Shown here piece after piece: positions 5,177 through 60,279 of a stretch of 64,000 bases of DNA (position 1 is its first letter; every line of letters begins with the position of its first letter). The stretch is taken from the NCBI GenBank assembly GCA_030690265.1, contig JAUYHA010000177.1:1-64000 (forward strand). The letters are read 5' to 3'. This stretch comes from Dehalococcoidales bacterium. Its GTDB lineage: Bacteria > Chloroflexota > Dehalococcoidia > Dehalococcoidales > UBA2162. Below the pieces are notes generated by a model, which saw only the letters and a program-made list of their open reading frames with translations, made no database searches and was not told where the DNA came from. The translations under genes and the position numbers were made by a program.

Positions 5177-5192
5177 GACTGACGAGTCAGTC
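5177..5192. promoter_or_regulatory. Perfect palindrome GACTGAC-GA-GTCAGTC, candidate TetR-type operator
   Basis: 7-bp arms with 2-nt centre in the ndh/katA intergenic region. Confidence 0.4.
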
Positions 5193-5305: not shown

Positions 5306-6631
5306 CTAACTGCCTTTGTTATCAATAACGGCTGACAAATCACTATCTTTACCCAATCGCGATTCAATATCTTGCGATTCAATAAGAGAGGTATCCGGCC
5401 CGAATATCCGTGCCAGAACCCAGTCAACCGCTATTTTTACACGGTTCTTTTTGCCGATAGCCAGTAACGAGTAGGATATAACCCAGACCAGTATCGCCAG
5501 AATACCACTTAATGAGAATCCGTTTAAACGTAACAAGGCGTTTGACCTGCCCAGTGATATCACCTCCGCCGAGTCAGAAATCCTGTATTTCGTTCTCTTT
5601 TTTTGCGTTATATCGGCAACCAGGTTCCTGGCTACAACGGCAGCCTGTCTAACGGCGTTATGTGCCCGCTGACGGGCCACCTGCCCGGTAACGGAATCCT
5701 GATAGTGGACACAATCGCCAACTGCATAGGCACCACCACAATTTACCAGCTCTAAAAAATCATTTACAATTACCCTGCCAATAGCATCCTTCTCAGCGCC
5801 AATTGATGAAATTACCGGATTAGCCACAACTCCGGTAACATAGACCACCGTGCGGGAGGGAATTGCTTCTCCAGTATCTAACCTTATCCGGTGGCTGCCG
5901 ATTTCGGTAATCCTGCAATTGAGCCTTACGTTGATATTGTGCTTTTGCAAATGCTTCATCACATAGTGCGAATACTTTTCAGGTAACTCACTGATGACTC
6001 TATCCTTAGACTCTATTAAGTTTATCTTAATCCTTGCCGGGTCTATATCCGGGTAACTGGACAGTAAGTATTTATATACCACGTCAGAAAGGCTTGAAGC
6101 CAGCTGAACACCTGTGTAGCCGGCACCGGAAATCGCCAAAGTCAATAACTCTTCAACCACCGCCGGGTCTGTTTCAGCACTGGCTTTTTCAAACATTTTT
6201 ATTATATGGTTCTTTACTGCCACGGCATCTTCTGCCGACTTAAGAGAGAATACGTTACTGCCGTTTTCAATATTATCAGCCATACCCGATATATCAGTAA
6301 CTCCGCCCAGCGCCAGGACGATATAGTCATAGCTGAAGATACCGGCACTCGTTTTTACTTTACCCTCGGAAAGATTAATATCTTCCACACGAGCCTGGAC
6401 GAACTGATGAATATTACTCCGGTAAAGATTGCGTATCGGCACAACAATATTCTCGGGAAACAATACTCCCACAGCCAACTCATGTAAAAGCGGCGAAAAT
6501 AAAAAGTAATTCTGCTTATCAATCAGGGTAATTTTGATGTCCTCGCGCTTCTTCAAATCGCGCAGCAGGTATTTGAGGACGGTGAGCCCCCCGAAACCGG
6601 CACCAAGAATCAAGATATTCTTTTTATCCAT
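5306..6631 (-). CDS. ndh: NAD(P)/FAD-dependent oxidoreductase, type II NADH dehydrogenase-like
   Basis: ILILGAGFGGLTVLKYL N-terminal FAD motif; YVTGVVANP; AVGDCVHY; C-terminal hydrophobic helix. Confidence 0.88.
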   Translation of the reverse strand: MDKKNILILGAGFGGLTVLKYLLRDLKKREDIKITLIDKQNYFLFSPLLHELAVGVLFPENIVVPIRNLYRSNIHQFVQARVEDINLSEGKVKTSAGIFSYDYIVLALGGVTDISGMADNIENGSNVFSLKSAEDAVAVKNHIIKMFEKASAETDPAVVEELLTLAISGAGYTGVQLASSLSDVVYKYLLSSYPDIDPARIKINLIESKDRVISELPEKYSHYVMKHLQKHNINVRLNCRITEIGSHRIRLDTGEAIPSRTVVYVTGVVANPVISSIGAEKDAIGRVIVNDFLELVNCGGAYAVGDCVHYQDSVTGQVARQRAHNAVRQAAVVARNLVADITQKKRTKYRISDSAEVISLGRSNALLRLNGFSLSGILAILVWVISYSLLAIGKKNRVKIAVDWVLARIFGPDTSLIESQDIESRLGKDSDLSAVIDNKGS

Positions 6632-6714
6632 AAGCTTATTTCCGGTCGTTTACAAAAGCTATCTTTTACTCCGCGCAGAGTCAAATGCCTAATACTGCTC
6701 CTGGCAGAAGTCAC

Positions 6715-7725
6715 TTACTGAAGGATTTTCTCCAGTTCGTCTCTTCCTTCAGGAGTGGTCATAAACACCAGGACATTTTCCGGTCTGATAGTATAATCAT
6801 CCTGTGGATTATACACCCAGTCATTTCCTGTTTTCACAGCGAGCAGCAAGGTACTCGATTTCTTTTTGATATCCAAATCAGATATCGTTTTGCCTGCCAA
6901 TCTTGCAGAAACACCAATTTCTTCAACCCGCAAATTCTTCTCCCGGTCTCTTAACATTATGTCCAGGAAGGACACAACCGTTGGTCTTACCATTTCAGAT
7001 GCCATCCTTAATCCGCCTATGAAACTGGGTGACACCACGGCATCTGCTCCTACCCTGATTATCTTTTCCTGATTGGTAATCTCATTACACCGGACGATAA
7101 TTCTGAGTTCCGGGTTCAGCTGTCTGGCGGTTAGACTAATAATCATATTGCTATTATCATCACCGGCGGCAGCAAATAATCCCCTGGCACGATTAACACC
7201 TGCTTTTACCAGAGTTTCGTTGTCCGTGGCATCTCCTTCAATAAAGACCGCTGCCCGGAGTAATTCGAGATGTCTGGCAACCTTGTTTTTATTTACATCC
7301 ACAATTACATATTGTCTACCGGTCGCGTCAAGTTCCTTAGCTATATTTGAACCTACGGTACCAAGCCCGCACACAATATAATGGTCTTCATAGTTGCCAG
7401 CTAATTTTTCCATCCTTCTCCTCCTGAAGGTCTGCATAAGGTCCCCTTCCACAAGCATTGCCGTAAAATTGGTGACCACATAAAGCAGTATGCCGATACC
7501 TGAAATAGCAATAAAAATGGTAAATACTCTGCCGGGGGCGGACAGCTCAAAAATTTCACCGAATCCAATTGTGGTAATGGTGATAAATGTCATATAGAAA
7601 GTATCTAATAAAGAATATTGTCTGCCCTCAATAATCCAGTAACCCAAAGTGCCTATAATAATGATGGTTATAAGGATTAATCCTGCCCAGAGAAATCTTT
7701 TGCGGATTTGCGAAGCCTCATTCAC
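6715..7725 (-). CDS. Two-TM potassium channel with TrkA-N (RCK) and TrkA-C domains
   Basis: Selectivity filter TITTIGFGE; HYIVCGLGTVGSNIAKEL Rossmann motif; C-terminal TrkA-C. Confidence 0.92.
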   Translation of the reverse strand: MNEASQIRKRFLWAGLILITIIIIGTLGYWIIEGRQYSLLDTFYMTFITITTIGFGEIFELSAPGRVFTIFIAISGIGILLYVVTNFTAMLVEGDLMQTFRRRRMEKLAGNYEDHYIVCGLGTVGSNIAKELDATGRQYVIVDVNKNKVARHLELLRAAVFIEGDATDNETLVKAGVNRARGLFAAAGDDNSNMIISLTARQLNPELRIIVRCNEITNQEKIIRVGADAVVSPSFIGGLRMASEMVRPTVVSFLDIMLRDREKNLRVEEIGVSARLAGKTISDLDIKKKSSTLLLAVKTGNDWVYNPQDDYTIRPENVLVFMTTPEGRDELEKILQ

Positions 7726-7732
7726 GACTTTA

Positions 7733-9529
7733 TTAACTCTCTATCCCTGGTCCCGCTTCTACTTTAAGCCGAGCCATTTCAGAGTCGAGTTCCCGAATAC
7801 GCTGAGACATCTTCTGCAGTATAAGATAGGCAAAAGAGGGGTCTTCATGAACACGCCGCAGAAAAATGCGTTTATCTATGGTTAGTATTCTCATATCACC
7901 TTTAGCCCGCACAGTTGCCGAGCGCGGCTGCTGCTGAAATAAAGCCATCTCTCCAAATACATCGCCCTCACCTAATACTGACAAAGTCACCTCTTTACCT
8001 TCCCGGGTCACAATTACTTCGCTCTGTCCGGACTGGATTACATACATACAATCCCCGGTCTCTCCTTCGCGTATAATTACTTCCCCATCATGATACAGCC
8101 TGCCCATAGTAGTCTCTTCCATCACTTCCTCCTTCCTGTCTGCTTCCACAGATGATGAGCCTGAGCCAGAGACTATATGCCGGATATAGCCGCCGATAAA
8201 AGCAGGGTGCAGACAACGTATGAACACATCGCGGTAAGGGGCACTTCCGGTGAACATATCCCAGAGTACCATACTCATCCGCCGGTACTTACCTAACTTC
8301 TGCTGCTCGCTTTTTATCATCCGCACCACCCCCCGGCTCAGTAACCGGCTTCTCTTTACTACCTCAACAGCTGCGTAAATAACCCTTCCGAACCGGTTGT
8401 CCCACTTGATAGTTTTGCAGATTGGCCAGTAACCTTCGAAGAAATCTCTTTGCGATATCCCCCTGAAGAGCGCCGTTACCGCAGCTACTTTAGCCGTCCG
8501 GTAGGCTGACCCGATACCGTCTTTATTGAGCCGGCTCATACCAGAGTCACCGATAAGCACCACCCGGTCACCGAAGGGCTGAGTAGCATTACCAAGGCTG
8601 GCATAGGGCGAACAGGAGCAAGTCCCGGCAGTGTGCGAGTCATTGCTGGAAAGATATTTTTGCACCGGCGGACGCTGCATAAATGAATCCACAAACTTAC
8701 CGTCCATCTTATCGCCGATAAGACACATAGTAACAAAATTATCCTTGGGGATAAGAGCAGCAAATTCAAGACCGGGTAAATTCAATAAAAAGGCATGCAT
8801 AGCATTACCCAGGTTATTGGTGACAAACTCGGAGCCGAAAGCAAATTCCATGTTGAAAGTTTTTCTGGCTTTTGGCTTCCGGTATCCAAAGTCCAGCTTC
8901 TCAAAAAGTCCCCCGCTCGGTGAATTTACCCCCACCGCCCCAACAATAAGGTCATACGTACGGGGCTCCCTGCCTTTAGTATGTACCTGAGGTTTCTGTC
9001 CATCCCAGGAAAGGTCAGTTACCCTTTCTTTGATAGCACCGGCTCCCTTTGATACAGCTAAATTCAGTATGTACTCATCAAAACTCTTCACTTTCATATC
9101 TGCAGCTCCCTTAGGCCCGCCACCCCGGTATGTCGTGGCAATTCTCATTTCGCGAAAAGGAGCGTACATAGTAACACTCTCCCTATCGGTATGCAGCAGG
9201 AATGAATTGATACCTCTCTGGACAACATCCGCCGGTAATCTTATGCCTTCTACAGACAAGGACTGCACCAGTGATTCTGAGATTACACCGGCGCACATAT
9301 TACAGCCAACAGGTCCCAGAGCCGAGAACTCCCGGCGTTCGTAAATATCCACCTGAAGACTGATTTCCACGCGACTCGCCATGTGCAAAAGAAAGTAGCT
9401 GAAGAAAGAACCGGCCGGACCACCGCCGATAACTGCTACCCGGGAACCATTATCCAGGGACAGAGACGAATTCTGCTTCATTTCCTGGCTAACTCCTCGA
9501 ACAACCGATTGGTACAAGCCCATCATCAC
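7733..9529 (-). CDS. Geranylgeranyl reductase-like FAD oxidoreductase fused to C-terminal cyclic nucleotide-binding domain
   Basis: VAVIGGGPAGSFFSYFLL; DRVVLIGDSGMSRLNKDGIGSAYRTAK; C-terminal DVFGEMALFQQQPRSATVRAKGD phosphate-binding cassette. Confidence 0.87.
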   Translation of the reverse strand: MMMGLYQSVVRGVSQEMKQNSSLSLDNGSRVAVIGGGPAGSFFSYFLLHMASRVEISLQVDIYERREFSALGPVGCNMCAGVISESLVQSLSVEGIRLPADVVQRGINSFLLHTDRESVTMYAPFREMRIATTYRGGGPKGAADMKVKSFDEYILNLAVSKGAGAIKERVTDLSWDGQKPQVHTKGREPRTYDLIVGAVGVNSPSGGLFEKLDFGYRKPKARKTFNMEFAFGSEFVTNNLGNAMHAFLLNLPGLEFAALIPKDNFVTMCLIGDKMDGKFVDSFMQRPPVQKYLSSNDSHTAGTCSCSPYASLGNATQPFGDRVVLIGDSGMSRLNKDGIGSAYRTAKVAAVTALFRGISQRDFFEGYWPICKTIKWDNRFGRVIYAAVEVVKRSRLLSRGVVRMIKSEQQKLGKYRRMSMVLWDMFTGSAPYRDVFIRCLHPAFIGGYIRHIVSGSGSSSVEADRKEEVMEETTMGRLYHDGEVIIREGETGDCMYVIQSGQSEVIVTREGKEVTLSVLGEGDVFGEMALFQQQPRSATVRAKGDMRILTIDKRIFLRRVHEDPSFAYLILQKMSQRIRELDSEMARLKVEAGPGIES

Positions 9530-10284
9530 ACCTCATACGTGTGGCATGATTCAGCCAATTCCACCCAACCGCCGAATTCCCGGGCGGCTCTTTCCAGGCA
9601 GGAAGCCCGAGAGCAGGTTGACCAGATATGCGTCAGTAATACATGCCTGGCTCCCGCTTCTCTGGCAATCCGGCCGGACTGCTCGGGGGTCAGATGCCCC
9701 CAGCTAACGTCTTTTTTACTTTCCAAACATGCTCCCGTATTACATATAAATAGCTCAGCATCCCTGGCAATCTCAATCAGTTCCGGACATGGTCCTGAGT
9801 CCGAAGAATAGGAAAGTTTTTTACTCCCGGTTACCGTGATACCAAAGGAAGGAATATAGTGGTAAACAGGGGTAAATTGAAACTTGAGACCGTCCAGCTC
9901 CAGCGGCTCTCCCGGATTATATTCAGAAACCCTGAAAGCGTCTTCAAAAAAATTGTCCGTCTCACTGAATGGCAGTGTAACCTGCCTCAACACATCAATG
10001 CCGCCAGGCGGCAGATGCAGCCGGGGCCTGGGCATATTATTACTCTCAATCCCGTAGCAAAGGGCATAGCGGTAGGGTATCAGGTCCAAAAAGTGGTCGG
10101 CATGCATGTGGGATATTACTATATCAGATATAGCGGTCAACTCGTGATATTTCTGCAGATAATTTAGCACGCCGGTACCACATTCCACCAGAACCGTTGC
10201 TCTGTCTGTCTCCACCAAGAATCCAGAACATGCCTCCCCGGCACCCGGGCAGGCGGCACCCGTGCCTAAAATCGTAACCCTCAA
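9526..10284 (-). CDS. MBL-fold metallohydrolase (RNase Z-like)
   Basis: ILGTGAACPGAGEACSGFLVE, ISHMHADHFLD, SSDSGPCPEL; overlaps the start of the downstream flavoprotein gene by 4 nt. Confidence 0.88.
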   Translation of the reverse strand: MRVTILGTGAACPGAGEACSGFLVETDRATVLVECGTGVLNYLQKYHELTAISDIVISHMHADHFLDLIPYRYALCYGIESNNMPRPRLHLPPGGIDVLRQVTLPFSETDNFFEDAFRVSEYNPGEPLELDGLKFQFTPVYHYIPSFGITVTGSKKLSYSSDSGPCPELIEIARDAELFICNTGACLESKKDVSWGHLTPEQSGRIAREAGARHVLLTHIWSTCSRASCLERAAREFGGWVELAESCHTYEV

Positions 10285-10428
10285 TTCTCCTCCTAGATTA
10301 TTTTAAACTCAAAATATTATACAGTATCGGGTAATAAACGCCAAGCGGGTTGGCATTTGAAAGATAGGTGGTATACATCCTATCCTGGTAGGCCGGCCCC
10401 CCGTATGTATAGCACGAAAATCCTAGCT

Positions 10429-11415
10429 TCACGGCCAGGACATCTCATGAAGAAGGCAGGCAACTTGATGAGAGCCTCCGGCATCTTTAAGTAGCGGAAC
10501 AACACTTGAACATTGCTCAAAGGCATGGCGGCAGCGTGGATGAAAAACACAGCCACCCGGTAAGCTTGCAGAGCCAGCCACTTCCCCTTTGAGCAGGATA
10601 ACATCCCGTTTTGCTTCTATATCAGGGTCTGGAATGGGCACGGCTGAGAGTAACGCCTGTGTATAGGGGTGCAATGGCGAGTTATAAAGCTCATCCCGGC
10701 TGGAGATTTCCATAATTTTCCCCAGATACATTACCATTACCCGGTCGCTGATGTGGCGCACTACTGAAATGTCATGGGAAATGAAGAGATAGCCAATGCC
10801 AAATTGCTCCTGTAAGTCATCAAGAAGGTTGATAATCTGGGCCTGTATTGAAACATCCAGGGCTGATATCGGCTCGTCGCAAATGATAAAGTCGGGTTGC
10901 AGGGCCAGCGCCCGGGCAATACCAAGGCGCTGACGCTGTCCACCACTGAACTCGTGGGGATAGCGGTCTGCCATGTTAGCAGAGAGTCCCACCATATTCA
11001 GGAGTTCGGAGATGCGTTCCCGGTAGTTCCCGGTTTTGCCATGTATGCGTAATGGCTCGCCGATTATATCTGTGGCGGTGAAGCGGGGATTGAGTGAATC
11101 ATAAGGGTCTTGAAAAATAACCTGTAGTTTTTGGCGCATCGGGCGCAGTGCCTTATCCGAGAGCTGGCACAGGTCAATCCCTTTAAAGAGCACTTCACCC
11201 TGCGTAGGCCGGTAGAGCTGTAATATACACTTGCCCAGAGTAGTCTTTCCACAACCACTCTCCCCGACCAGCCCCAGTGTTTCCCCTGCCTTAACCTTAA
11301 AACTTACCCCATCCACCACTTTCGCATCACCCGTCTCCTTCCGGCGGAATAATCCTGAGCCCGCCGGAAAAGACTTGGTAAGATTATTAACTTCAAGTAT
11401 TATTTCTTCTGCCAC
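10429..11415 (-). CDS. Oligopeptide/dipeptide ABC transporter ATP-binding protein (OppF-like)
   Basis: Walker A GESGCGKTTLGKC, signature FSGGQRQRLGIARAL, C-terminal oligo_HPY motif. Confidence 0.95.
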   Translation of the reverse strand: MAEEIILEVNNLTKSFPAGSGLFRRKETGDAKVVDGVSFKVKAGETLGLVGESGCGKTTLGKCILQLYRPTQGEVLFKGIDLCQLSDKALRPMRQKLQVIFQDPYDSLNPRFTATDIIGEPLRIHGKTGNYRERISELLNMVGLSANMADRYPHEFSGGQRQRLGIARALALQPDFIICDEPISALDVSIQAQIINLLDDLQEQFGIGYLFISHDISVVRHISDRVMVMYLGKIMEISSRDELYNSPLHPYTQALLSAVPIPDPDIEAKRDVILLKGEVAGSASLPGGCVFHPRCRHAFEQCSSVVPLLKDAGGSHQVACLLHEMSWP

Positions 11416-12395
11416 GGTTTAACACCCTCTTGAGCTCTAATACAAGCTGAATAATGGCTGCCGGAGACTGGCAGGAGCACGGCTTCACCCTGCTGGCATT
11501 CAGTGCCCTGATGAGCACAACGGGGGCCAAAAGAGCATCCTCTGTAGAAGCTAATTAAATCCGGCGGTTGCCCCTCAATCGGCTTCAGTCTGCTCCGAAC
11601 CGACTCATTTAGACGAGGCACTGAAGCCAGTAAGCCCGCGGTATAGGGATGAGCGGGGTTCTTGTAGACTTCTCCGGTAAGCCCATATTCGACGACCTGT
11701 CCGGCATACATGACATATATGCGATGGGCATAGCGGGCTACTACTCCCAGATTGTGGGTAATTAGGATAAGAGCCATCTTTAATTCTTCGGTAATATTGC
11801 GGATAATTTCCAGAAGCTGGGCCTGGATGGTTACATCCAGGGCGGTGGTGGGTTCGTCGGCAATGATAAGTTTCGGCTGGCAGGATATAGCCATCGCAAT
11901 CATAACCCGCTGGCGCATCCCGCCGCTGAATTGATGGGGGTAGTTTTTCGCCCGCTCTCGGGGCTGGGGAATTTCCATCAGATTGAGAAGCCGGACTGTC
12001 TCATTAAAAGCTTCTTGCTTGGTCATATGCCGGTGGAACTCCAGGGCTTCGGAAATCTGGCGGCCCACGGTCAGCACTGGATTCAAAGAGGTCATCGGCT
12101 CCTGGAAAACCATTGAAATGCTAGCTCCTCTTATCCGGCGCAGTTCCTCATTAGAGATTTTCAAAAGGTCAGTGCCGTCAAAGATAACCTCGCCGGAGAG
12201 AATCTTGCCCGGCGGCTCTTTAATCAGGCGCAGGATAGATAGGGCACTCACCGTTTTCCCGCAGCCACTCTCACCCACCAGAGCCACCGTCTCACCTTCA
12301 GCGACAGCATAGGAAACGCCGTTGACTGCCTTAACTATGCCGTCCTGAGTGTAGAAATGGGTTGTCAGATTGCGAACTTGCAGAATGTTTGACAT
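11400..12395 (-). CDS. Oligopeptide/dipeptide ABC transporter ATP-binding protein (OppD-like)
   Basis: GESGCGKTVSALSIL, FSGGMRQRVMIAMAI, C-terminal GCSFGPRCAHQ. Confidence 0.95.
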   Translation of the reverse strand: MSNILQVRNLTTHFYTQDGIVKAVNGVSYAVAEGETVALVGESGCGKTVSALSILRLIKEPPGKILSGEVIFDGTDLLKISNEELRRIRGASISMVFQEPMTSLNPVLTVGRQISEALEFHRHMTKQEAFNETVRLLNLMEIPQPRERAKNYPHQFSGGMRQRVMIAMAISCQPKLIIADEPTTALDVTIQAQLLEIIRNITEELKMALILITHNLGVVARYAHRIYVMYAGQVVEYGLTGEVYKNPAHPYTAGLLASVPRLNESVRSRLKPIEGQPPDLISFYRGCSFGPRCAHQGTECQQGEAVLLPVSGSHYSACIRAQEGVKPWQKK

Positions 12396-12397
12396 AT

Positions 12398-13270
12398 TTA
12401 TCGCCTCAACCTCGGGTCCAGGGCATCTCTTAAACCATCCCCCGAGAAGGTGAAGGCAAGCATCAAAATACCAATTGCCAGAGCGGGAAAGACTATCAGA
12501 TGGGGTGCGGCGAAGATAACATCATAGCCATCACGAATCATCGTCCCCCAGCTGGGAGTAGGCGGCTTAACCCCGATACCGATATAGCTCAGAGCCGCCT
12601 CAGCAAAGATAGCCCTGGGTATATTAAAGGTAGTTGCCACTATTATCGGCCCCAGTGAGTTAGGCAGCAGGTGCCGCAGGGTAATGTAGCGCCCATTCCC
12701 GCCCATAGCCCGTGCCGCAGAAACGAAGTCTCGTCCTTTCAGAGCCAGTACCTGCCCGCGGGTCAAGCGGGCGATATTAACCCAGGCGGCCAGGCCAATT
12801 GCCAGGAAAATCATGTAGATACTACCGCCGAGGACGGCACGAAGCAGGATAATGAGCAGGATGTCAGGAAAAGCATACATGACATCAACAAAACGCATCA
12901 GGGTATTGTCTATCCTGCCGCCGGTGTAACCGGCAAAAGCACCGATGGGTATCCCTACAATCAAAACGATAAGCTGGGTAAAAATACCCACCGCTAAAGA
13001 GGTGCGGGCACCGTAGAGCAGACGGGTGAAAACATCACGCCCCAGAGCATCTGTCCCGATGAAGTGATTAAAGCTGGGGCTCTCCAGAATGGCATTCAAG
13101 TTTTGCTGGTCATAAGCATAGCTGGTTATCAGCGGAGCAAGTATGGCACTAAGGCTAATCAGCAGAATAACAATAGCCCCGGCTACGGCCAGACGGTTCC
13201 GTCTCAGTCGTATCCAGGCATCACCCCATAAAGTATGATGAGGGCGTGCTGTTTCTACGGCTACGCTCAT
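12398..13270 (-). CDS. Oligopeptide ABC transporter permease (OppC-like)
   Basis: FIGTDALGRDVFTRLLYGARTSL, EAALSYIGIGVKPPTPSWGTMI. Confidence 0.95.
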   Translation of the reverse strand: MSVAVETARPHHTLWGDAWIRLRRNRLAVAGAIVILLISLSAILAPLITSYAYDQQNLNAILESPSFNHFIGTDALGRDVFTRLLYGARTSLAVGIFTQLIVLIVGIPIGAFAGYTGGRIDNTLMRFVDVMYAFPDILLIILLRAVLGGSIYMIFLAIGLAAWVNIARLTRGQVLALKGRDFVSAARAMGGNGRYITLRHLLPNSLGPIIVATTFNIPRAIFAEAALSYIGIGVKPPTPSWGTMIRDGYDVIFAAPHLIVFPALAIGILMLAFTFSGDGLRDALDPRLRR

Positions 13271-13278
13271 TTTACTCC

Positions 13279-14247
13279 TCAGTTATAACGGATGCGCGGG
13301 TCTATCACCGAGTATAATATGTCCACCGCCAGGTTCACCACGGCGACGGCAAAAGCATAAAAAAGTATGGCTCCCATAATAAGACCGTAATCACGGGCGA
13401 AAACACCCTGAACAAATAAGCGGCCAATACCCGGGATAGAAAACAGGCTCTCAATGATGAAAGAGCCGGAAATTAAAAAAGCCAGCTCCGGTCCGGCAAT
13501 AGTGACTACCGGAATTAAAGCATTTCTCAAAATATGACGGAGCAATATAATTCGCTCGGTAAGGCCCTTTGACCGGGCGGTACGTATATAGTCCTGCTGA
13601 ATTACTTCCAGCATACCAGCCCTCATAATTCGGGCGATATAAGCCGCCGGGAGCGCCGCCAGAGCAAAAGCCGGCATAATAATCTTCTGAACAGTACCCC
13701 ACCCACCTGTAGGAAGCCAGTGCAGCACCACTGAAAATATTATTATCAGCAAAATACCCAGAACGAAGCCGGGAATACTGACGAAGATTGTTGATAATAA
13801 AACCGAGGCGTAGTCTACAACCGAGTTCTGCCTCAGGGCAGCTGCTGCTCCCAGAGGAATGCCGATGATGAGAGCAATGGCAAAGGCAGCAAAACCCAGG
13901 GTGACTGTCTTGGGTAAGCCTTGAAGCAAGATTTGAGTGACACCCCGGTCCTGATAAGAATACGAAACGCCGAGGTCTCCACGAACGGCATTCCAGATGA
14001 AGTCCCCGAACTGGACAAGGAACGGTTTGTCCAGCCCGTATTTCTGGTTCAGGTTAGCCACTACCTGCGGGTCCAGTTGTTTTTCCTCATCCCATGGCCC
14101 GCCCGGTACCAGATGCATCAGGGAGAAGGTAATAAAAGCTACCACCAGAAGGACAAGACAAAGCCAGAGAAAACGGTACGCCAAGTATTTGGGCATTTCT
14201 TCAAAAACCAATGGACTCGGCGGGTTAGCTTTATCCGCCGAGTCCAA
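13279..14247 (-). CDS. Oligopeptide ABC transporter permease (OppB-like)
   Basis: FSLMHLVPGGPWDEE, YIRTARSKGLTERIILLRHILRNALIPVVTI, IESLFSIPGIGRL. Confidence 0.95.
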   Translation of the reverse strand: MDSADKANPPSPLVFEEMPKYLAYRFLWLCLVLLVVAFITFSLMHLVPGGPWDEEKQLDPQVVANLNQKYGLDKPFLVQFGDFIWNAVRGDLGVSYSYQDRGVTQILLQGLPKTVTLGFAAFAIALIIGIPLGAAAALRQNSVVDYASVLLSTIFVSIPGFVLGILLIIIFSVVLHWLPTGGWGTVQKIIMPAFALAALPAAYIARIMRAGMLEVIQQDYIRTARSKGLTERIILLRHILRNALIPVVTIAGPELAFLISGSFIIESLFSIPGIGRLFVQGVFARDYGLIMGAILFYAFAVAVVNLAVDILYSVIDPRIRYN

Positions 14248-14274
14248 TCTTAACCTGATATCTGGTCTGGGTGC

Positions 14275-15927
14275 CTATTGCCCAATGTAAATCTCTCTGA
14301 GGAACATATCTCCGGCAACCCGACCATCCATCCCGGTAGTCTTGAGTCCTTTAACGGAAGGTTTATATAAGACGAACCGCTCGCGGTAGTACATCGGGAT
14401 TATCGGCACATCCTCCATTACCATTCGCTGAGCATCAGCCAGCAACTGAAGCCGTTTGTTATTATTCAATTCTGCCTTCGCCTGCTCAACAATATCATCA
14501 AACTGCTGATTGCTGTACATGGTAAGGTTATTCCCGGCCCCGGTACCGAAAAGTTCAGGCAGGAAATTATCGGGGTCCGGATAGTCAGCTCCCCAGGAAA
14601 TCCAGATTAGATTGTGGCCTCCTCCCAGGAATAGCTGAACGAAAGACTTGGGCTCCATAGGTTCCAGAGCAATATCTATCCCCAGGCCGTCTTTTAACTG
14701 TCCCTGCAAAAACTCGGCAATCAGCCTGTTACCGCTGGCGTCTGCGTACTGGAATTTAAGTTCCGGCAGTGTGCTTATGTCAGCATAGCCAGCTTCAGCC
14801 AGAAGCTGTTTGGCTTTGTCAAGGTTAAATTCGTACTCCTTGCCCAGTTTAGAATCGTATCCGGGCATACCGGGCGGTACCCAGCTGTATGCCGGCTCCC
14901 CGACTCCATCTCTAACCTTGTCCACAAAGGAAACCCGGTCAATGGCAGTTGCCAGCGCCTGACGCAGCTTGAGATTGTCAAAAGGAGGCTTGCTGACATT
15001 GAAGAAGAAGGCGTAAGTTCTCAGTTCAGGGTAACGTACAATCTCCTGACTCAGTATGGGGTCAGCCATAGTAGCTTTCTCCGTTCCCGGAGGCACATTG
15101 CTCATTTCAAGCTCATCGTTTCTATAGGCGGCCAGCTCAGCATTGACATCGGTAATCATTTTCAACTGGATTTCGGTCAACTTCGGTTTGCTCCCCCAGT
15201 AGTTGGGGTTTGCTTTCAGGGTTATGTGGTCCTGGTGAAGCCACTCGCTGAGCACAAAGGGGCCATTACCGATATAATTTGGCGGTTCTGTCCAGCTAGC
15301 CCCGTGCTGAGTGATGATGTCTTCGCGCACAGGGTAAGTAGGCCATAGTGCCATGAGCTGTAAAAATGTGGGACGGGGTTGAACCAGTGTAATTTGAATG
15401 GTCTGCTCATCAATAGCCTCAACGCCGACAGCATCCCTCAGGTTCGCCCTGGCGGCTTCATCCTGGTCGGCAGCCCCGTTATATTCCTTGGCGCCGGCAA
15501 TATCAAAATAGAAAGAGGCATACTTTGCCGCCAGCTCCGGGCTCAACATACGCTTGATACTGTACTCAACGTCCGATGCAGTAACTTCTTCACCGTCGCT
15601 CCAGGTAACACCATCACGTAACTTGAAAGTGTAGGTCTTGCCATCAGCCGATATTCCGTTGTTGCCGACGGAAGGGACTTCCCGGGCTACCACCGCTTTT
15701 AAGGTAAGGTCCTGGTTAAAGCCGAGCAGTCCATCAAAGACCTGCATAATGACGGTCCTCTGGTTAGCCACAGAAGCAAGATTAGGGTCAATAGTGGCCG
15801 GTTCCCCGCTGATATTGACTCTCAGTATTTGCTCACTGGCGGGAGCCTGCCCTCCGCAAGCCCCCAGAAGCAGAACCAAGACTATAAGACACACAGAACT
15901 CAGATAGATAAGCGTTTTCTTCTTCAT
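14275..15927 (-). CDS. Oligopeptide ABC transporter substrate-binding lipoprotein (SBP family 5)
   Basis: Lipobox LLLGACGG; NISGEPATIDPNLASV, TYTFKLRDGVTWSDGEEVTASDV. Confidence 0.95.
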   Translation of the reverse strand: MKKKTLIYLSSVCLIVLVLLLGACGGQAPASEQILRVNISGEPATIDPNLASVANQRTVIMQVFDGLLGFNQDLTLKAVVAREVPSVGNNGISADGKTYTFKLRDGVTWSDGEEVTASDVEYSIKRMLSPELAAKYASFYFDIAGAKEYNGAADQDEAARANLRDAVGVEAIDEQTIQITLVQPRPTFLQLMALWPTYPVREDIITQHGASWTEPPNYIGNGPFVLSEWLHQDHITLKANPNYWGSKPKLTEIQLKMITDVNAELAAYRNDELEMSNVPPGTEKATMADPILSQEIVRYPELRTYAFFFNVSKPPFDNLKLRQALATAIDRVSFVDKVRDGVGEPAYSWVPPGMPGYDSKLGKEYEFNLDKAKQLLAEAGYADISTLPELKFQYADASGNRLIAEFLQGQLKDGLGIDIALEPMEPKSFVQLFLGGGHNLIWISWGADYPDPDNFLPELFGTGAGNNLTMYSNQQFDDIVEQAKAELNNNKRLQLLADAQRMVMEDVPIIPMYYRERFVLYKPSVKGLKTTGMDGRVAGDMFLREIYIGQ

Positions 15928-16043: not shown

Positions 16044-19000
16044 TTACGGTAAGACATAGCCAAAGACACCGCTGTCCGGCATATTATCAACTATGCCCTT
16101 CTCGCTGGTAGCCTGAACCCCAGCCTGGGTTTCAGCAAACCACTGGATATAGTAGTCATTGCCCAGGTTAAGGTCAGCCAGGCTAAAGGTAAGTACCAGC
16201 CAGCCATCACCGGGCAAAGTGTAACTGAGGCTGCCCAGTCCGGTTAATCTACCGTCATTATACTTCAGATGGAAGGTATTCCCTGACTGAGTATTTAACT
16301 TTATGCGGTACTGGTAATCAGCAGTGATATCCTCGGCTACCCGGATACCGATGTTCATATTATCGCCGACGACCTCAACATAACCCCTGATGAGATTGGC
16401 AGAGCCAAGACTGTTCCCATAGGCATCAGCTGTAGCATCACTTTCAGTGTCCCATATCCGATTGAGCAGCACATCATCCGTGCCGATGCCGCCATTGGCA
16501 TCAAGCACTTTAAGGGTGGCATTAATCTCCGCAGGAGCATCCTCATCCGTGTAGTTGTAGGTGTGGGAGACGATGAAGACAGTGGTATTATCAGACCCGA
16601 AACTGTCAGGGAGGAGCAATCCGCTGGTAGCGGTGCCATCACCAAAGTCCCAGATATACGAAACCGGGACTTCAGGCTTTTCATCATAGGCAACAACAGA
16701 GCGGAAATTGACCGGTTTACCCGGAGCATAGCCCTGGTCAATGCCGGCATCAACATCGATGATGCTCATATTGGCACCCTTGCCAGTAAAGTAAGCTATA
16801 TTGCCGTATTTGTCCCAGACCTGCACCAGCAAACCATTCCCCTCAGCGTAACTGACATCAACAGTGAACAAGCCGCTCTCAGGCAAGGGTTCGCTCAAAT
16901 CGAGCCTGGCCGGTTCCAGACTACCATCACCAATGCTGAGGACCAGCACACCCTTAATGCCGCTCGGGTCAGCGGCGTTAACGGTGACAGACACCGTGGT
17001 GTCATCCACCCGGCGCAAGTCCATGCCGTTTACCACCGGGGGCTGCCATTCGCTGGCTCCGCGCAAATATTCGATTTTAAGATTGTTATACAGACGCTGA
17101 ATTCCGATAACCGGGACAGAAGATGTTGGCATGAACTGTCCGGGCATCACCACCACGTTCTGGAGTATATCGCCGCCTGCGGCCAGGGTATTAAGGGTAA
17201 CAATCTCTGAGGGCCAGAAGGAGAATACCGTTGTCTTGGGCTCCTCTACATTCGTCGACCACTCGTTGGTTGGCCTGTGGATAACCGGGTCAAAGTCCTC
17301 AATATCCGTATAGGAACCGCCGGTAATCAATACCCCATGCACCGTCGGCTCAACAGGCAAAACGATACGCGGCTGGATAGCTCGTCCGGCGGTGACCTGA
17401 GTATCGCCTTCAGTAGTGTCATAGCTGGCGGCATAGTAATAGCCGAGACTGCTGGGGGGTTCCGGCTGCCGCTGCAGGACATAGCTGACCGAGGGAAGAG
17501 GCGAACCATCTGTTATTTCCAGGTTCCCCGAGATTGACTCGCCGGCAACCTGCGCCGTTGCCTGCGTAAACAGTGGGTTGTTCTCCCCCTGGCTTACCTG
17601 CACGCTGTACATAGGCAGACCGTAGAGGGTGGTCTGGATAGATGATTTCTCATCATACACTGAAATAGTGCTCAGGCTGTTCAGGTACTCTATCTTTGTA
17701 TCCCTGACAGCCTTACCAATCTTAACTTCGCCCTTGACCAGCTCCCTGGCCAGCATGGAAAGAATAAGCTCGTTACCAGCCAGACCTTCAGTTTCACCCA
17801 GGCCGTAGCCGGTGTTGCCGATGAGTATCGCCGCTTGCCTGGTCAGAGCCTGAGGGAAGTCCAGAGCCGGCTTGACACCCAGACCCGGGTCAGCAGACTT
17901 GGAACCGCGGTCAGGAACATTAAGGCCCATATGGCAGCCTATTGAGAATATGATTTTCCGGAAGAGAGACGGTTCTGAACCTTCGGGAACCACCAGGTCG
18001 AGGCTGGTCATCAGGTCATTCTCTATAGGGACCTGGTTAAAACCCCAGGCGGACAAAGCGGCGTAGTGGGTATAATGAGCGTTCAGGTCGTCGATATCAG
18101 GCACAGTAGATGTATTAAGGAAGCCACTAAGCAGCCCGTCAGCCGTCCAGTCATCACTTATCATAGCAACAGGATTCAACCCGGCGGTGCTGAAGGTATT
18201 GAATACATCCTCAGAGCCATCGGTGAAGAAGTCGTAGCCGCTGACGAAAGTATCCGTAGGCTGAATAACGCCCGGGATAACACCCTCGTCGGACAGGAAA
18301 ACACGGGCAGTATCAATGATATCCTGGGGAGTCTCTACCAGACGTCCCATAGCAAAGTCAGGTATATAGAGCTCCCGCCCCCGGAATGCCGAGGGCTGAA
18401 CATCACCATAAAAGTCGTCGGTAAGGTTGAAACCACCCTGAATGCTATAGCGCAGCGGGCTGCCTGCTTTGAGGAAAGCACTGCGGATATAGAAGCGCTC
18501 GTTACTGATGACGGTCTCATCGGGAACACGCCGGTAGGGGATAACATCGTCACTGCCAACCAGGACAATATATTCTATAGTGGAACGAGTGCTAATATAA
18601 CCCAGTGTTTCGTTGCGTACCAGGGCAGCCACATTATTAGCTTCATCCACGCTGCCCGGGTTAACATCCCAGGTATCATAAATAACACTGGGTACGGAAA
18701 TGATGTGCCCCAGAACGTCAGGATGTGCCGCCAGATTCTCCAGCGCTGCCTGCAGGTCGGTCCAGGACTCTTCCGGATATAGTGCCTGCAGCCGCTCCCG
18801 CTGGGTAACAAACAGCGTCTTTGGGGCGGCATTTCCAGCCAGTTGGTCAAATATTATCACGGTTGTCTCAGTAGGTGGAAAATCAGGAGCAGTGACCAGT
18901 ACCGAACCGGTCGGTGCGTTCTTCACCACGGGCACCTTTAACTCTATCTGAAGAGCATAGGGGTCGGAGCTGAAAGCACCGTTTGCCCCTTTAACAACTA

Positions 19001-23768: not shown

Positions 23769-26700
23769 CTAGGGATACGAAGTGCCAAGTTTAACTGCCC
23801 TGTCAAGGTCTTTTTGGGCTCCTATACGCCGGAAAATAGCTATTGCCTGACTAATAGCAGTCCTGAATCCCCGGCGGTTCTCTTTACCCACTCTCTCCGA
23901 AGACCGCAATTCGGCGAGATAGAGAAGTGACAGTGCTTTTTCATAATCTGCCTTCATTTGTTCCGCCAGGAGCACGCTCTGTTGCAGATTAGCTTCTGCC
24001 TGAACATAGCCATCAGCGCGAGCCATATTGATGCGTCCCAAAATGCGAAGCCCGCGAACCTCAACAAGCTTCAAACCCATCTTACCGGTCTCTTTCAAGC
24101 CTCGCTGGCAGGTACGCCGTGCCAGCTCTATCTGGCCTGTTTCCAGCTCTAGTTCCGCTTGCTGCAGAAGTGCCTCGGCCTGCAGCCCGGGATGGCGGGC
24201 TTTCTTGATAAGCTCCATAGCTTTCTGCAGTTGCCGAAATGCTTTAGGATAGTCCTGCTGACGCTGGTAAGCCCTGGAGAGGTTTATCATAGCCAGACCG
24301 GTGGGACCCAGAGGTGAGCCGGTCCGTTCGTAGGTCTCCACCACTTTATCCAGGTGGTCTATCGCTTCCTCTATATGTCCTTGAATAAGTAATACCTCTG
24401 CAATATTGTTATGCTTGATAGCCACGAGGTTAGGGTTACCCAGACGCTGGCAAGCCTCCAGGCCAGCCTGGTAGTGGTATAGAGCCTTATCCAGAATACC
24501 CAGAGCCTGGTAGCAACCACCTACATTACTATGAGCTACTGATTGCCCGAAGATATCTCCTACCTCTTCATAAAGACGGACTGCTATAAGGCGATGCCTC
24601 AAGGCTTGTTTCACCTTTCCGGTCCACAGATAGGAACCAGCCAGTATGGTGTGGGCATAGGCAAGGTGACGCAGGTCACTGCTACGTCGTGACAGGGTCA
24701 AACCCACTCTCCCACAGCGAATTGATTCTTCGTGAAGACCTTTACGGAACAGGGTAAGGGTCATGGCGGTCCAGATGAGAGCCGCCTGTGACGGTTGCCT
24801 CGGAGGCAGCTTGCTCAGAGCTGTATCCAACCACCTGAGCGAGGAGTCATATTCAAAGTGACGCTCGTATGATACACCTATCTTGCGGCATAAAGCGGAT
24901 TCCCGGACCCTGGCCGGGGGTATTCCTAACAGGTCGGAGAGAGGTGGCGGAGTTCCATAACGTCTGGCCTGGCGCCAGGCTCGCAATGCTTCGGAGTAAG
25001 CTTTCGCCGCTTCAGCATGTTGCCCCCCGTCCTCGTAGCAATCCCCGATGCGCTCAATGATGTAATTGCCTTGATGGACTATAGCTCCGCCAATCTGCTT
25101 GACCGAATCCAGGGCGCGACGGTAGTAGTCGATAGCCTCTTCATGGGCAAAAACCTTCCGCGCTTTGTCAGCCGCCTTCACCGCGTAGGTCAGGGTCTTA
25201 TCATTATTCCTGCCATGGCTATAATGATGAACCAGAATTTCATATACCGTCTCGAGCTTACCCCCGTTAGCTTCTTCAATACAGGTAGCTACCTGTTGAT
25301 GTAGTTCACGCCGCCGTGCAAATAACAGGCTGTCATAAGCAATATCCTGAATTAGAGTGCTCTTGAATCGGTACATATCCTGTTTAATATCCGGGTAGGG
25401 AGCCAGCAAATCAAGTTGGGACAGGTCTTGCAGGCAGTGTTCCAGGTTGACTTCCTCGGCGCTGAAACTCAGTAGCGGCTGTAAAGTCGGAATGTCAAAG
25501 GTGCTTCCAATTACTGAAGCGGTCCGGATTACCTCTTTCAGGAAATTACCCAGGGTATCTATTCTAGCCATAATCAGGGTCTGGAGACGGTCAGGGATAT
25601 CCAGCGAAGCCATTATCTTTGACGATTCTAAAGTAGAAGCAGTCAATATTTTGTCTATGACGCCGGCGGCACTCAACGAGACGGCAATTTCCTCAAGAAA
25701 TAAGGGATTACCTCTTGCTTTGGTAAGAATTGTTTCCATAACCTGTTCGGGAAGATTGGGATGCCCGAGGACACTGAGGGCAAACTGTTTGGCAACTTCC
25801 TGAGGCAGTTCTCCAAGAGTAATAGTCACAGCTGAACGCTCCGGCAGCTTTATCTTTTCCTCTTTAGCAGGTCTCTGACTCAGACAGACCATTATATGAG
25901 AGTTGCTGATATTTGCTCCCAGGTAGTTAATAAGTTCTAGCGAACTGTGGTCTGCCCAGTGCAGGTCTTCTACAAGAATTAAAAGCGGCAACTTCAATGC
26001 CGACTCCTGAAACAAACGGGCCACGAGTTCGAAAAGTCGCCGGCGGCGACTCTCATCATCAAGAGAGCGCACCACATCACTTTCGGGAATAGAAAGGCCA
26101 AGCAACCAGTTCAATAATGAAGCGGACTCAATAAATTCCGGACTTAAGCGTTCGATTGTGGATAGAACCTTCTGGCTGCGGGATTCGGCGCTTTCATCAG
26201 GACTCAGCCCGAAAAATGTGTTCAATATTCCTACCCACGGTGTAAAGGGTTTAGACACCGTGTGTGACTGACAGGTACCCGTATATGTTTCCCACCCCAG
26301 GCTATTCGTATGGTCCTGAAATGACTGAATCAGGCGGGACTTCCCTATACCGGCTTCACCTGAGACAATTACGACCTGACCTTTTCCAGAACCGATTTTA
26401 CGACAGGTCTTCTTGAATAATGCCAGCTCTTTTTCACGACCAAACAGGGTACTGGCCGGCTCTGAGAGTATCGCTGGGGCAACATTCCTCTCACCTTCCA
26501 GCTCATAAACAGGTATCGCGTCTCTCTTACCTTTAACTTGAATAGGTGCCAGTTCTCTGGATTGGAAGCTGGCACCAGCCTCAATTATCACCTGCCTGGA
26601 TACCAGCGCTTTATCGGCAGAACAAGCGCTCATCAGCCGGGCAGACAGGTTCACTGCATCACCCATCACGGTATATTGCCGGCGGTAAGCTGGCCCGACA

Positions 26701-27890
26701 TCCCCGGCGAAAACAAAACCCGAGTTGACGCCGATTTTATAGGAAAGATGCAACTTTAACTCGGCTAATTTACGGCTCAGTTCCGTTACCAGATGCAGGG
26801 CGCTTGCCGAATCGTACTCGTGGGCTACCGGGGCTCCGAAAACAAGAATCAACTTCAATCCGTGAGTATAGACGTCATTACCTGCCAGAAAACCTCCGGA
26901 TTCGTTGCTCAGTTGCAGCAGTGCCGTCAGGTATTGCTGCAGTTCCTTCAGCATAGATTCGGCACCGTATTCCTCCAGAAGCTTATTAATACCGATGAGA
27001 TTAATGAAGATAATAGTGACCTTACGATGTTCCCCTTCAATGTTTCTGACTTTACCATCGCTTCGCAGTCCTTGTGCTATGGGAGGGGGAAGAAAAGCTA
27101 CTATTTCGGTTACTCCAGCCGGGAGTCCGGCATCAGGCTTATTGATAAGGGATTGAATAATTGGCTTCACCCGGAGACGACGGACCAGGTAGTTGCCACC
27201 ACGGGGTTCGGTAATACAGAATTCACCAAGCTGTTTCATAGAGCTTTCCGAAATAAGCAGCTCACCACTTTCAGCTTCATCCTGAAGCTCGCATACCCTG
27301 TTGGTATCTGGACCCAGGATAAAATGCTGCATGGTGTGCCCGGCTAAACCGGCGGCTGCCGAGTAAAAGTTGCCGCTGTGCACACCGATGGTCATCTTAA
27401 GGCGAAGGCGAAAGCTGCCGGCACGAAAAGCCTTGAACTGACCGGTGGTTCGCTGCATTGCCAGGGCAGCAGCTACCGCCCGCAAAGCGTGGCTCTCTCC
27501 CTGGAAAAGAATGAGCAGGGCATCCCCGCCAAATTTCAGATTATCGCCACCGTACTGGTTGCTGGTATCCAGCATGCTCTGGAAATACTGGTTGATTATA
27601 TTGGTAAGCAGTTCCGCTCCCTCTTTACCCACCTCAGCCAGCTTTTCCGTCATCGGAGTAAATCCTGAGATATCAGCGAGCAGAAGAGTACCTTCGATTG
27701 AATCTACCCAGGGCGGGTTCCTATCAGGATGCGAGGCAATGGCATCCAGCAGAATACCTGGTATGTACGGCGCCGTAGACGGCAACAAACCAGGGTCAAT
27801 ATCCGGAGACTTGTTCCCAACCTTTTTGGGTTCAGCTTTAGGTTCAGAGAAATTCTTCTTCCCGCGTCTTTCAAGTGATTGAGCTGACAT
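23769..27890 (-). CDS. Soluble adenylyl cyclase-like protein: two class III cyclase domains, P-loop NTPase, TPR repeats
   Basis: C1 LLADISGFTPMTEKL...FGGDALLILF; C2 YTVMGDAVNLSARLM; Walker A VSGEAGIGKSRLIQSF; C-terminal TPR. Confidence 0.92.
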   Translation of the reverse strand: MSAQSLERRGKKNFSEPKAEPKKVGNKSPDIDPGLLPSTAPYIPGILLDAIASHPDRNPPWVDSIEGTLLLADISGFTPMTEKLAEVGKEGAELLTNIINQYFQSMLDTSNQYGGDNLKFGGDALLILFQGESHALRAVAAALAMQRTTGQFKAFRAGSFRLRLKMTIGVHSGNFYSAAAGLAGHTMQHFILGPDTNRVCELQDEAESGELLISESSMKQLGEFCITEPRGGNYLVRRLRVKPIIQSLINKPDAGLPAGVTEIVAFLPPPIAQGLRSDGKVRNIEGEHRKVTIIFINLIGINKLLEEYGAESMLKELQQYLTALLQLSNESGGFLAGNDVYTHGLKLILVFGAPVAHEYDSASALHLVTELSRKLAELKLHLSYKIGVNSGFVFAGDVGPAYRRQYTVMGDAVNLSARLMSACSADKALVSRQVIIEAGASFQSRELAPIQVKGKRDAIPVYELEGERNVAPAILSEPASTLFGREKELALFKKTCRKIGSGKGQVVIVSGEAGIGKSRLIQSFQDHTNSLGWETYTGTCQSHTVSKPFTPWVGILNTFFGLSPDESAESRSQKVLSTIERLSPEFIESASLLNWLLGLSIPESDVVRSLDDESRRRRLFELVARLFQESALKLPLLILVEDLHWADHSSLELINYLGANISNSHIMVCLSQRPAKEEKIKLPERSAVTITLGELPQEVAKQFALSVLGHPNLPEQVMETILTKARGNPLFLEEIAVSLSAAGVIDKILTASTLESSKIMASLDIPDRLQTLIMARIDTLGNFLKEVIRTASVIGSTFDIPTLQPLLSFSAEEVNLEHCLQDLSQLDLLAPYPDIKQDMYRFKSTLIQDIAYDSLLFARRRELHQQVATCIEEANGGKLETVYEILVHHYSHGRNNDKTLTYAVKAADKARKVFAHEEAIDYYRRALDSVKQIGGAIVHQGNYIIERIGDCYEDGGQHAEAAKAYSEALRAWRQARRYGTPPPLSDLLGIPPARVRESALCRKIGVSYERHFEYDSSLRWLDTALSKLPPRQPSQAALIWTAMTLTLFRKGLHEESIRCGRVGLTLSRRSSDLRHLAYAHTILAGSYLWTGKVKQALRHRLIAVRLYEEVGDIFGQSVAHSNVGGCYQALGILDKALYHYQAGLEACQRLGNPNLVAIKHNNIAEVLLIQGHIEEAIDHLDKVVETYERTGSPLGPTGLAMINLSRAYQRQQDYPKAFRQLQKAMELIKKARHPGLQAEALLQQAELELETGQIELARRTCQRGLKETGKMGLKLVEVRGLRILGRINMARADGYVQAEANLQQSVLLAEQMKADYEKALSLLYLAELRSSERVGKENRRGFRTAISQAIAIFRRIGAQKDLDRAVKLGTSYP

Positions 27891-59730: not shown

Positions 59731-60279
59731 TTAACTTGGCTTTACCGATAACAGGCGCTCGCTTATCAGCAGTTGTCTGGTATCATCCAGCCTGGAAGCT
59801 GCTACCCTGACAACTCCCTTTAAAACAGTATAGCCAATATCGTGATTCTTTTCAATTAATTGTCTCAGTTTACGACCGTTAATAGATAAGACTCTGACAT
59901 CCTGCAGGCATACTGCTGTCAGGAGATGGGTGTACGGTTCAACGACAGCTGACCAGCCCACTATTTCATTACTGGTGGCTATATCCACGGTGATTCTCCG
60001 GCTGGCCCGGGTGACTGATTTAGGTAATGAAGCCTGTATAGCTACTCTACCTTCTTGAACGATAAAAAACTCTTCAGAACTATCCGCTTCCTCAAAAAGG
60101 ATAGTCCCTGCCTCAAATTGCTTCTCGGCGGTAAAAGAGGCTATTTCCTTCAATGCGTTATCGCCAAGGGTTGCCAAAACGGGGCAACTTTTCAAGCCGG
60201 AAATAACCGACTTATCCGACCTATCACCCGTTCTATAGCTCATTGAAAACTCCTCTGAGACAGGTTGCAAGATAATCAT
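59731..60279 (-). CDS. Cyclic nucleotide-binding domain protein (Crp-like fold, no HTH)
   Basis: CPVLATLGDNALKEIASFTAEKQFEAGTILFEEADSSEEFFIVQEGRVAI. Confidence 0.82.
   Translation of the reverse strand: MIILQPVSEEFSMSYRTGDRSDKSVISGLKSCPVLATLGDNALKEIASFTAEKQFEAGTILFEEADSSEEFFIVQEGRVAIQASLPKSVTRASRRITVDIATSNEIVGWSAVVEPYTHLLTAVCLQDVRVLSINGRKLRQLIEKNHDIGYTVLKGVVRVAASRLDDTRQLLISERLLSVKPS

Follow-up and report, generated by a model that had tools for sequence, protein, structure and literature searches.

A flavoenzyme fused to a cyclic nucleotide-binding domain in a Dehalococcoidales bacterium, a candidate cAMP-regulated partner of NDH-2

The window analyzed here (the whole 64,000-nucleotide stretch of DNA from a Dehalococcoidales bacterium) encodes a confirmed two-domain protein, in which an N-terminal FAD oxidoreductase is joined to a C-terminal cyclic nucleotide-binding (CNB) domain within one uninterrupted reading frame of 598 codons with a GTG start. 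The protein retains cAMP-contact residues, its two modules recur among relatives in conserved fused and split arrangements, and its gene is linked to genes for a protein like type II NADH dehydrogenase (NDH-2), an adenylyl cyclase and a phosphodiesterase-like protein. In our reading, which on the sequence comparisons has about an even chance of being correct, the fusion would be a cAMP-regulated membrane-redox flavoenzyme partnered with NDH-2 and acting on the quinone pool or on a prenyl tail. The features on which the argument draws are the following (positions in the window):

5177..5192, minus strand: terminator-like hairpin after the NDH-2-like gene (consensus scan; weak, and the count of such hairpins is not above that in shuffled sequences)
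5306..6631, minus strand: NDH-2-like NADH:quinone oxidoreductase (Pyr_redox_2, 128 bits; PDB matches)
6715..7725, minus strand: K+ channel with two transmembrane segments and an RCK part (TrkA_N/TrkA_C), selectivity filter TTIGFGE (Pfam Ion_trans_2, TrkA_N, TrkA_C)
7733..9529, minus strand: fused FAD oxidoreductase-CNB protein, 598 aa (reading frame, profile matches, AlphaFold2 model)
7754..8104, minus strand: CNB domain and C-terminal helix, aa 476-592 (Pfam match at aa 479-558; PF00027, E 1.2e-25)
7904..7957, minus strand: phosphate-binding cassette FGEMALFQQQPRSATVRA, aa 525-542 (alignment to CRP)
8102..8194, minus strand: linker between the FAD and CNB domains, aa 446-476 (low pLDDT; gene break in relatives)
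8195..9460, minus strand: FAD domain with a GGR/FixC/KMO-type fold, aa 24-445 (TIGR02032, 43 bits; Foldseek)
8612..8620, minus strand: CxC (C304, C306), second invariant cysteine pair of the FAD domain (alignments)
9293..9304, minus strand: CxxC (C76, C79) within GCNMCAG, where GGRs have their active-site cysteine (alignment)
9526..10284, minus strand: MBL-fold gene resembling atypical class-II cAMP phosphodiesterases (NF041851, 147.6 bits; SHMHADH)
10316..10344, minus strand: promoter-like site TTGGCG-17-TATAAT immediately ahead of the MBL gene (consensus scan; weak)
23769..27890, minus strand: adenylyl cyclase with two class III domains in tandem, AAA and TPR, similar in architecture to soluble adenylyl cyclase, sAC/ADCY10 (Pfam, PDB match)

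The AlphaFold2 model of the whole fusion (from a 33-row alignment) had a mean pLDDT of 86.6 and a pTM of 0.86, with pLDDT falling to 48 within the linker, at aa 461-470; in six relatives (L088, L089, L090, L094, L135 and L136) the linker is the point at which the gene breaks and the modules are separate genes. The N-terminal 445 residues have the Rossmann fold of a FAD-dependent protein, with GGGPAG at aa 35-40 and GDS at aa 327-329, and no Pfam family scored above its cut-off on them. The original prediction of a GGR/FixC-type enzyme (GGR, geranylgeranyl reductase) held only at the level of the superfamily and of the FixC fold: the best NCBIfam model was that of the GGR superfamily (TIGR02032, 43.1 bits), and the domain is distantly related to the canonical GGR of the same bin (hhalign 97%). 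Strict membership in the GGR family was ruled out, because the score lies well under the cut-off of 158.8 and because the GGR substrate motif YxWxFP (PMC12004948) is lost, with FAALIP at aa 256-261 of the fusion and FAWLVP in the canonical GGR of the bin.

It is nevertheless conceivable that the fusion is a GGR-type enzyme that saturates prenyl side chains (e.g., those of menaquinone, like MenJ) under the control of cAMP. For this speak, besides the superfamily match, the alignment of GCNMCAG with ICCTG of the canonical GGR in the region of the active-site cysteine (Cys47 in the Sulfolobus acidocaldarius enzyme, S. acidocaldarius GGR, PMC12004948), the variation of isoprenoid substrates among GGR homologues (PMC12004948) and the presence of MenA in the bin. 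However, beyond the low score and the missing substrate motif, solved GGRs were absent from the 50 best structural matches of the FAD domain, and the bin already has a canonical GGR that scores above the family cut-off, so that we consider a prenyl reductase of this type rather unlikely.

The CxxC is accompanied in the FAD domain by the CxC pair, which is absent from the aligned canonical GGR of the bin. All four cysteines (C76, C79, C304 and C306) were invariant in a 15-row alignment comprising both CNB- and NDH-2-linked members, and in a 28-row alignment C76, C304 and C306 remained invariant and C79 was kept in at least 90% of the rows. These cysteines could serve as a disulfide relay or as a metal site.

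The C-terminal domain was matched by PF00027 (cNMP_binding) with 89.8 bits, above the cut-off of 27.5, which bears out the original prediction of a FAD enzyme fused to a CNB domain with a canonical phosphate-binding cassette. In the alignment to Escherichia coli CRP (E. coli, sequence taken from MG1655), the ribose-binding Glu and the phosphate-binding Arg and Ser are kept (E72/R82/S83 of CRP, E527/R536/S537 of the fusion), as is the base-capping Arg of the C-helix (R123 and R577, respectively). The pair at the adenine edge is changed (T127/S128 of CRP, L581/D582 of the fusion), and because of this replacement the ligand could be either cAMP or cGMP. The GE and the Arg of the cassette were kept in 16 of the 17 CNB sequences scanned, the remaining one (that of L134) being missed by the search pattern. 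Between the window copy and a second copy of the fusion in the same bin (contig C179), the FAD domain showed a dN/dS of 0.07 and the CNB domain one of 0.12; the latter is under purifying selection.

The phosphodiesterase-like, K+ channel, NDH-2-like and cyclase neighbors, which the original prediction did not mention, are the strongest functional clues. In the window, the MBL gene shares 4 bases with the start of the fusion gene; at the second copy it lies upstream at a distance of 27 bases. It scored under the cut-off of 400 of NF041851, and both copies (SHMHADH, SHIHADH) carry the signature [T/S]HXHXDH of atypical class-II cAMP phosphodiesterases (e.g., Rv1339; PMC9293780); the nearest structures were 1zkp and YhfI (6kns). 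Related MBL genes occur near L090 and L105 (THRHYDH and SHGHYDH), and the one near L090 passes Pfam PDEase_II. The K+ channel gene also lies downstream of the second fusion copy. The cyclase, with PF00211 in two stretches, AAA_16 and TPR, had human ADCY10 as its best PDB match (E 2e-26); aligned to it, C1 shows the pair of metal-binding Asp (ADISGF, KFGGDAL) and C2 the Asn/Arg in YTVMGDAVNLSAR. Homologues of the cyclase are encoded on C179, divergently from the MBL gene, and after the FAD and CNB genes in L090. Cyclase genes were found at 6 of 15 CNB-type loci and at none of 24 others, in 195 and 252 kb of sequence read, respectively (Fisher P=0.0015, an optimistic value since the loci are related). 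The surroundings of the fusion gene fit a cAMP circuit.

Further observations were made in these regions. A giant PKD-domain protein of 1725 aa, with the pentapeptide WDEGS repeated about 20 times, is encoded at 16044-21221 of the window (minus strand); its homologues adjoin the cyclase in L019 (3-1766) and, in L088 (9911-14398, with FDMTT repeats), immediately precede the FAD and CNB genes. A peptide-type ABC transporter operon occupies 10429-15927 of the window and also follows in L088. In L093 (8179-9971, minus strand), a K+ channel-RCK gene overlaps a CNB gene, beside another CNB of the fusion family and a cyclase gene. A standalone CNB protein of 182 aa, which contains no HTH, is encoded at 59731-60279 of the window (minus strand) and adjoins a glutamate-synthase-like Fe-S flavoprotein.

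The CNB domain of the fusion probably binds a cyclic nucleotide, and direct gating of the FAD enzyme by such a ligand is likely. An alternative is that the domain has weak affinity for a ligand, or none, and is there only for dimerization or docking, with no control by a second messenger. The changed adenine-edge residues would agree with this, and CNB-fold proteins that bind no ligand exist, e.g., the standalone protein just mentioned, which is unrelated to the CNB of the fusion and has a degenerate cassette (GWSAVVEPYTH where GE...R is expected). This alternative is unlikely in view of the Glu and Arg of the cassette kept throughout the family, the conserved R123 cap, the purifying selection on the domain and the cyclase and phosphodiesterase-like genes nearby.

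The NDH-2-like gene lies two genes downstream of the fusion gene. The nearest solved relatives of its product are NDH-2s (9mqy, E 2e-39, then YjlD, 5na1, 4nwz and Ndi1; also 9pxk), and its NDH2_C domain scored 26.5 bits against a cut-off of 27.7. The protein is homologous to the C-terminal half of fusions of about 880 aa that belong to the sister clade of the FAD domain; most members of that clade either form proteins of about 840-890 aa together with an NDH-2-like part or are encoded beside an NDH-2-like gene, and one NDH-2-linked sister member is present in the same bin (C91, L022). Because the sister FAD domains are fused to NDH-2, the FAD domain and NDH-2 may act together (a Rosetta-stone argument), and a functional partnership is probable. 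In the CNB-type loci the link is one of proximity, not of fusion: the window, L019, L105 and L086 have NDH-2 near the CNB fusion, and none was seen in the flanks read at several other CNB-type loci. ETF or FixX partner genes were absent from the neighborhoods read, the partners being NDH-2, CNB or SDR-like. MenA was found in the bin and a quinone pool is therefore plausible; menaquinone synthesis by the futalosine pathway (PF02621) was not found there. We regard the chances as evenly balanced that the substrate of the FAD enzyme is a quinone or a prenyl compound.

The structural comparisons raise the question of an oxygen-dependent reaction. The FAD domain modeled alone (pLDDT 91.3) matched kynurenine 3-monooxygenase (KMO; 6foz, E 6e-19) and, in second rank, FixC (7koe_C, E 1e-18) in Foldseek, and the whole fusion had FixC of Fix/EtfABCX (7koe_C, E 9e-18) in first rank; scores were nearly equal among FixC, kynurenine 3-monooxygenase and halogenases (including PltM). 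A profile search of the domain against PDB sequences gave weak halogenase and FixC matches and nothing else. A hydroxylase- or halogenase-type enzyme (KMO/PltM-like), whose oxygen-dependent reaction would be under control, could be drawn from the top Foldseek matches next to FixC, and the window contains a catalase gene, as might be expected under some exposure to oxygen. Class A flavoprotein hydroxylases carry the DG motif GADGxxSxxR. In the fusion this region reads GAVGVNSPSG, with the Asp and Arg missing, which disfavors a class A hydroxylase; as the partner, moreover, is an NDH-2-like NADH dehydrogenase, we hold an enzyme of this type to be quite improbable.

The search for relatives covered 393 genomes from the class and 400 from the phylum. 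Besides the second copy in the same bin (581 aa, 81% identity, a continuous reading frame), four further fused loci were found elsewhere (G033, G104, G098 and G704), which brings the number of fused loci to six, in five genomes. In at least six loci (G071, G077, G164, G260, G604 and G727) the FAD and then the CNB module are separate adjacent genes with small gaps or overlaps, and G206 has the look of a split FAD and CNB pair, its FAD gene being cut by the contig end. In a tree of 43 FAD domains, all CNB-linked ones fell into a single clade (support 100/100), which also takes in three members with no CNB seen alongside; one change on the tree accounts for the association with CNB and two for the fused versus split state. 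A scan of genome contigs for the fusion yielded nothing beyond one match at the level of the CNB domain, and tblastn of the fusion against plasmids gave partial matches, none of which reached a query coverage of 80%; all of the ten listed fell in the CNB part. That two genes were joined by an assembly or sequencing artefact might be suspected from the separate adjacent genes of several relatives, but this was rejected, and a sequencing frameshift as the source of the fusion refuted, because six fused loci from five genomes, two of these loci on different contigs of the same bin, have continuous linkers and because of the purifying selection, which together leave an artefact a negligible chance.

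Outside the class, five loci (L138, L140, L141, L142 and L144) have tandem pairs of diverged FAD-domain genes, the second of which forms its own clade. L137 (5655-8522, plus strand) encodes an NAD(P)H-binding DUF2867 protein that carries the FAD domain at its C-terminus, and in L135 a DUF2867 gene is the divergent neighbor of the FAD-domain gene. Synonymous divergence between the window (5306-10284) and L019 (6386-11010) was uneven: 2.3 for MBL, 1.6 for FAD, 0.87 for CNB, 1.4 for the K+ channel and 0.37 for NDH-2. Such unevenness between the two copies of the bin may reflect gene conversion or mixing within the bin, whose contamination is 7.3%.

A cAMP-regulated flavoenzyme partnered with NDH-2 might work as follows. 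cAMP would be made by the sAC-like cyclase and taken up by the C-terminal CNB domain, a shift of the C-helix and linker would then switch the FAD domain to higher or lower activity, and the MBL-fold phosphodiesterase encoded just upstream would remove the cAMP; the uptake of cAMP and the direction of control are what we infer from the contact residues and the gene neighborhood. Electrons would probably pass from NADH, via the NDH-2-like dehydrogenase, to one or both flavins and on to a lipid-soluble acceptor, either the head group of menaquinone or a polyprenyl tail with double bonds; NDH-2 may either feed NADH electrons to the FAD enzyme or share the quinone pool with it, and the electron path, like the substrate, is proposed from these genomic associations. 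More tentatively, and with distinctly less confidence, one might see here a self-contained circuit from cAMP to respiration that would operate without transcription (made up of a sAC-like cyclase, a phosphodiesterase and a flavoenzyme that is gated by its CNB domain and uses the same quinone pool as NDH-2). The FAD domain would then represent an undescribed four-cysteine (CxxC + CxC) family, perhaps with an extra redox center, in paired cAMP-gated (CNB) and ungated (NDH-2-fused) versions, which sometimes occur in one genome.

Bacterial cAMP is known mainly for its action via CRP-type transcription factors and, to our knowledge, few bacterial enzymes are switched directly by a fused CNB domain. 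If the proposal is true, a second messenger would control membrane redox metabolism itself, directly rather than by gene regulation, and the fused and split pairs together with the ungated, NDH-2-fused sister proteins make the idea of gating directly testable. The open-licence papers searched contained no work on a GGR combined with a cyclic nucleotide-binding domain, in agreement with the earlier remark that a characterized example is not known, and none on cyclic nucleotide signaling in Dehalococcoidia. Fusions of CNB domains with enzymes are already known; the FAD-CNB pairing, the NDH-2 sister form and the surrounding set of cAMP genes appear to be undescribed in that literature.

Among known systems, the GGR superfamily (TIGR02032; including MenJ and Bsr) shares with the fusion the FAD Rossmann fold with GxGxxG, a Cys near the flavin and the GD motif, but the fusion differs in its sub-cut-off score, the lost YxWxFP, the extra CxC pair and its joining to CNB or NDH-2. 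FixC of Fix/EtfABCX is the best structural match of the full fusion and the second of the domain model, but with 16-17% identity and no ETF/FixX partner seen beside the fusion gene. Kynurenine 3-monooxygenase and the flavin halogenases resemble it in overall fold (TM about 0.6), whereas the fusion has no DG motif and its genomic partners are others. The upstream MBL gene shares the signature of the atypical class-II phosphodiesterases Rv1339/CpdA/YhfI and scores under the NF041851 cut-off (PMC9293780). Bd1971 of Bdellovibrio, a proven cAMP receptor, is a CNB-EAL c-di-GMP phosphodiesterase allosterically activated by cAMP, and it binds cGMP too, either nucleotide activating it (PMC6717892). As in the fusion, a single CNB domain sits on a catalytic domain, and the cassette FGEMALFQQQPRSA of the fusion resembles that of Bd1971, FGEMALIDNQNRSA, almost letter for letter (FGEMAL....RSA is common to both); Bd1971 also has no counterpart of the T127/S128 contacts of CRP and uses Asn instead. 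Its CNB domain, however, is N-terminal, not C-terminal as in the fusion, and its enzyme is an EAL protein, not a flavoenzyme. Mycobacterial Pat/Rv0998 is a cAMP-gated protein acetyltransferase in which a CNB domain is joined to an enzyme of metabolic control. The model NF058543 matches the CNB part of the fusion, which is like Pat/Rv0998 in joining CNB to an enzyme and unlike it in that this enzyme is a flavoenzyme and not an acetyltransferase.
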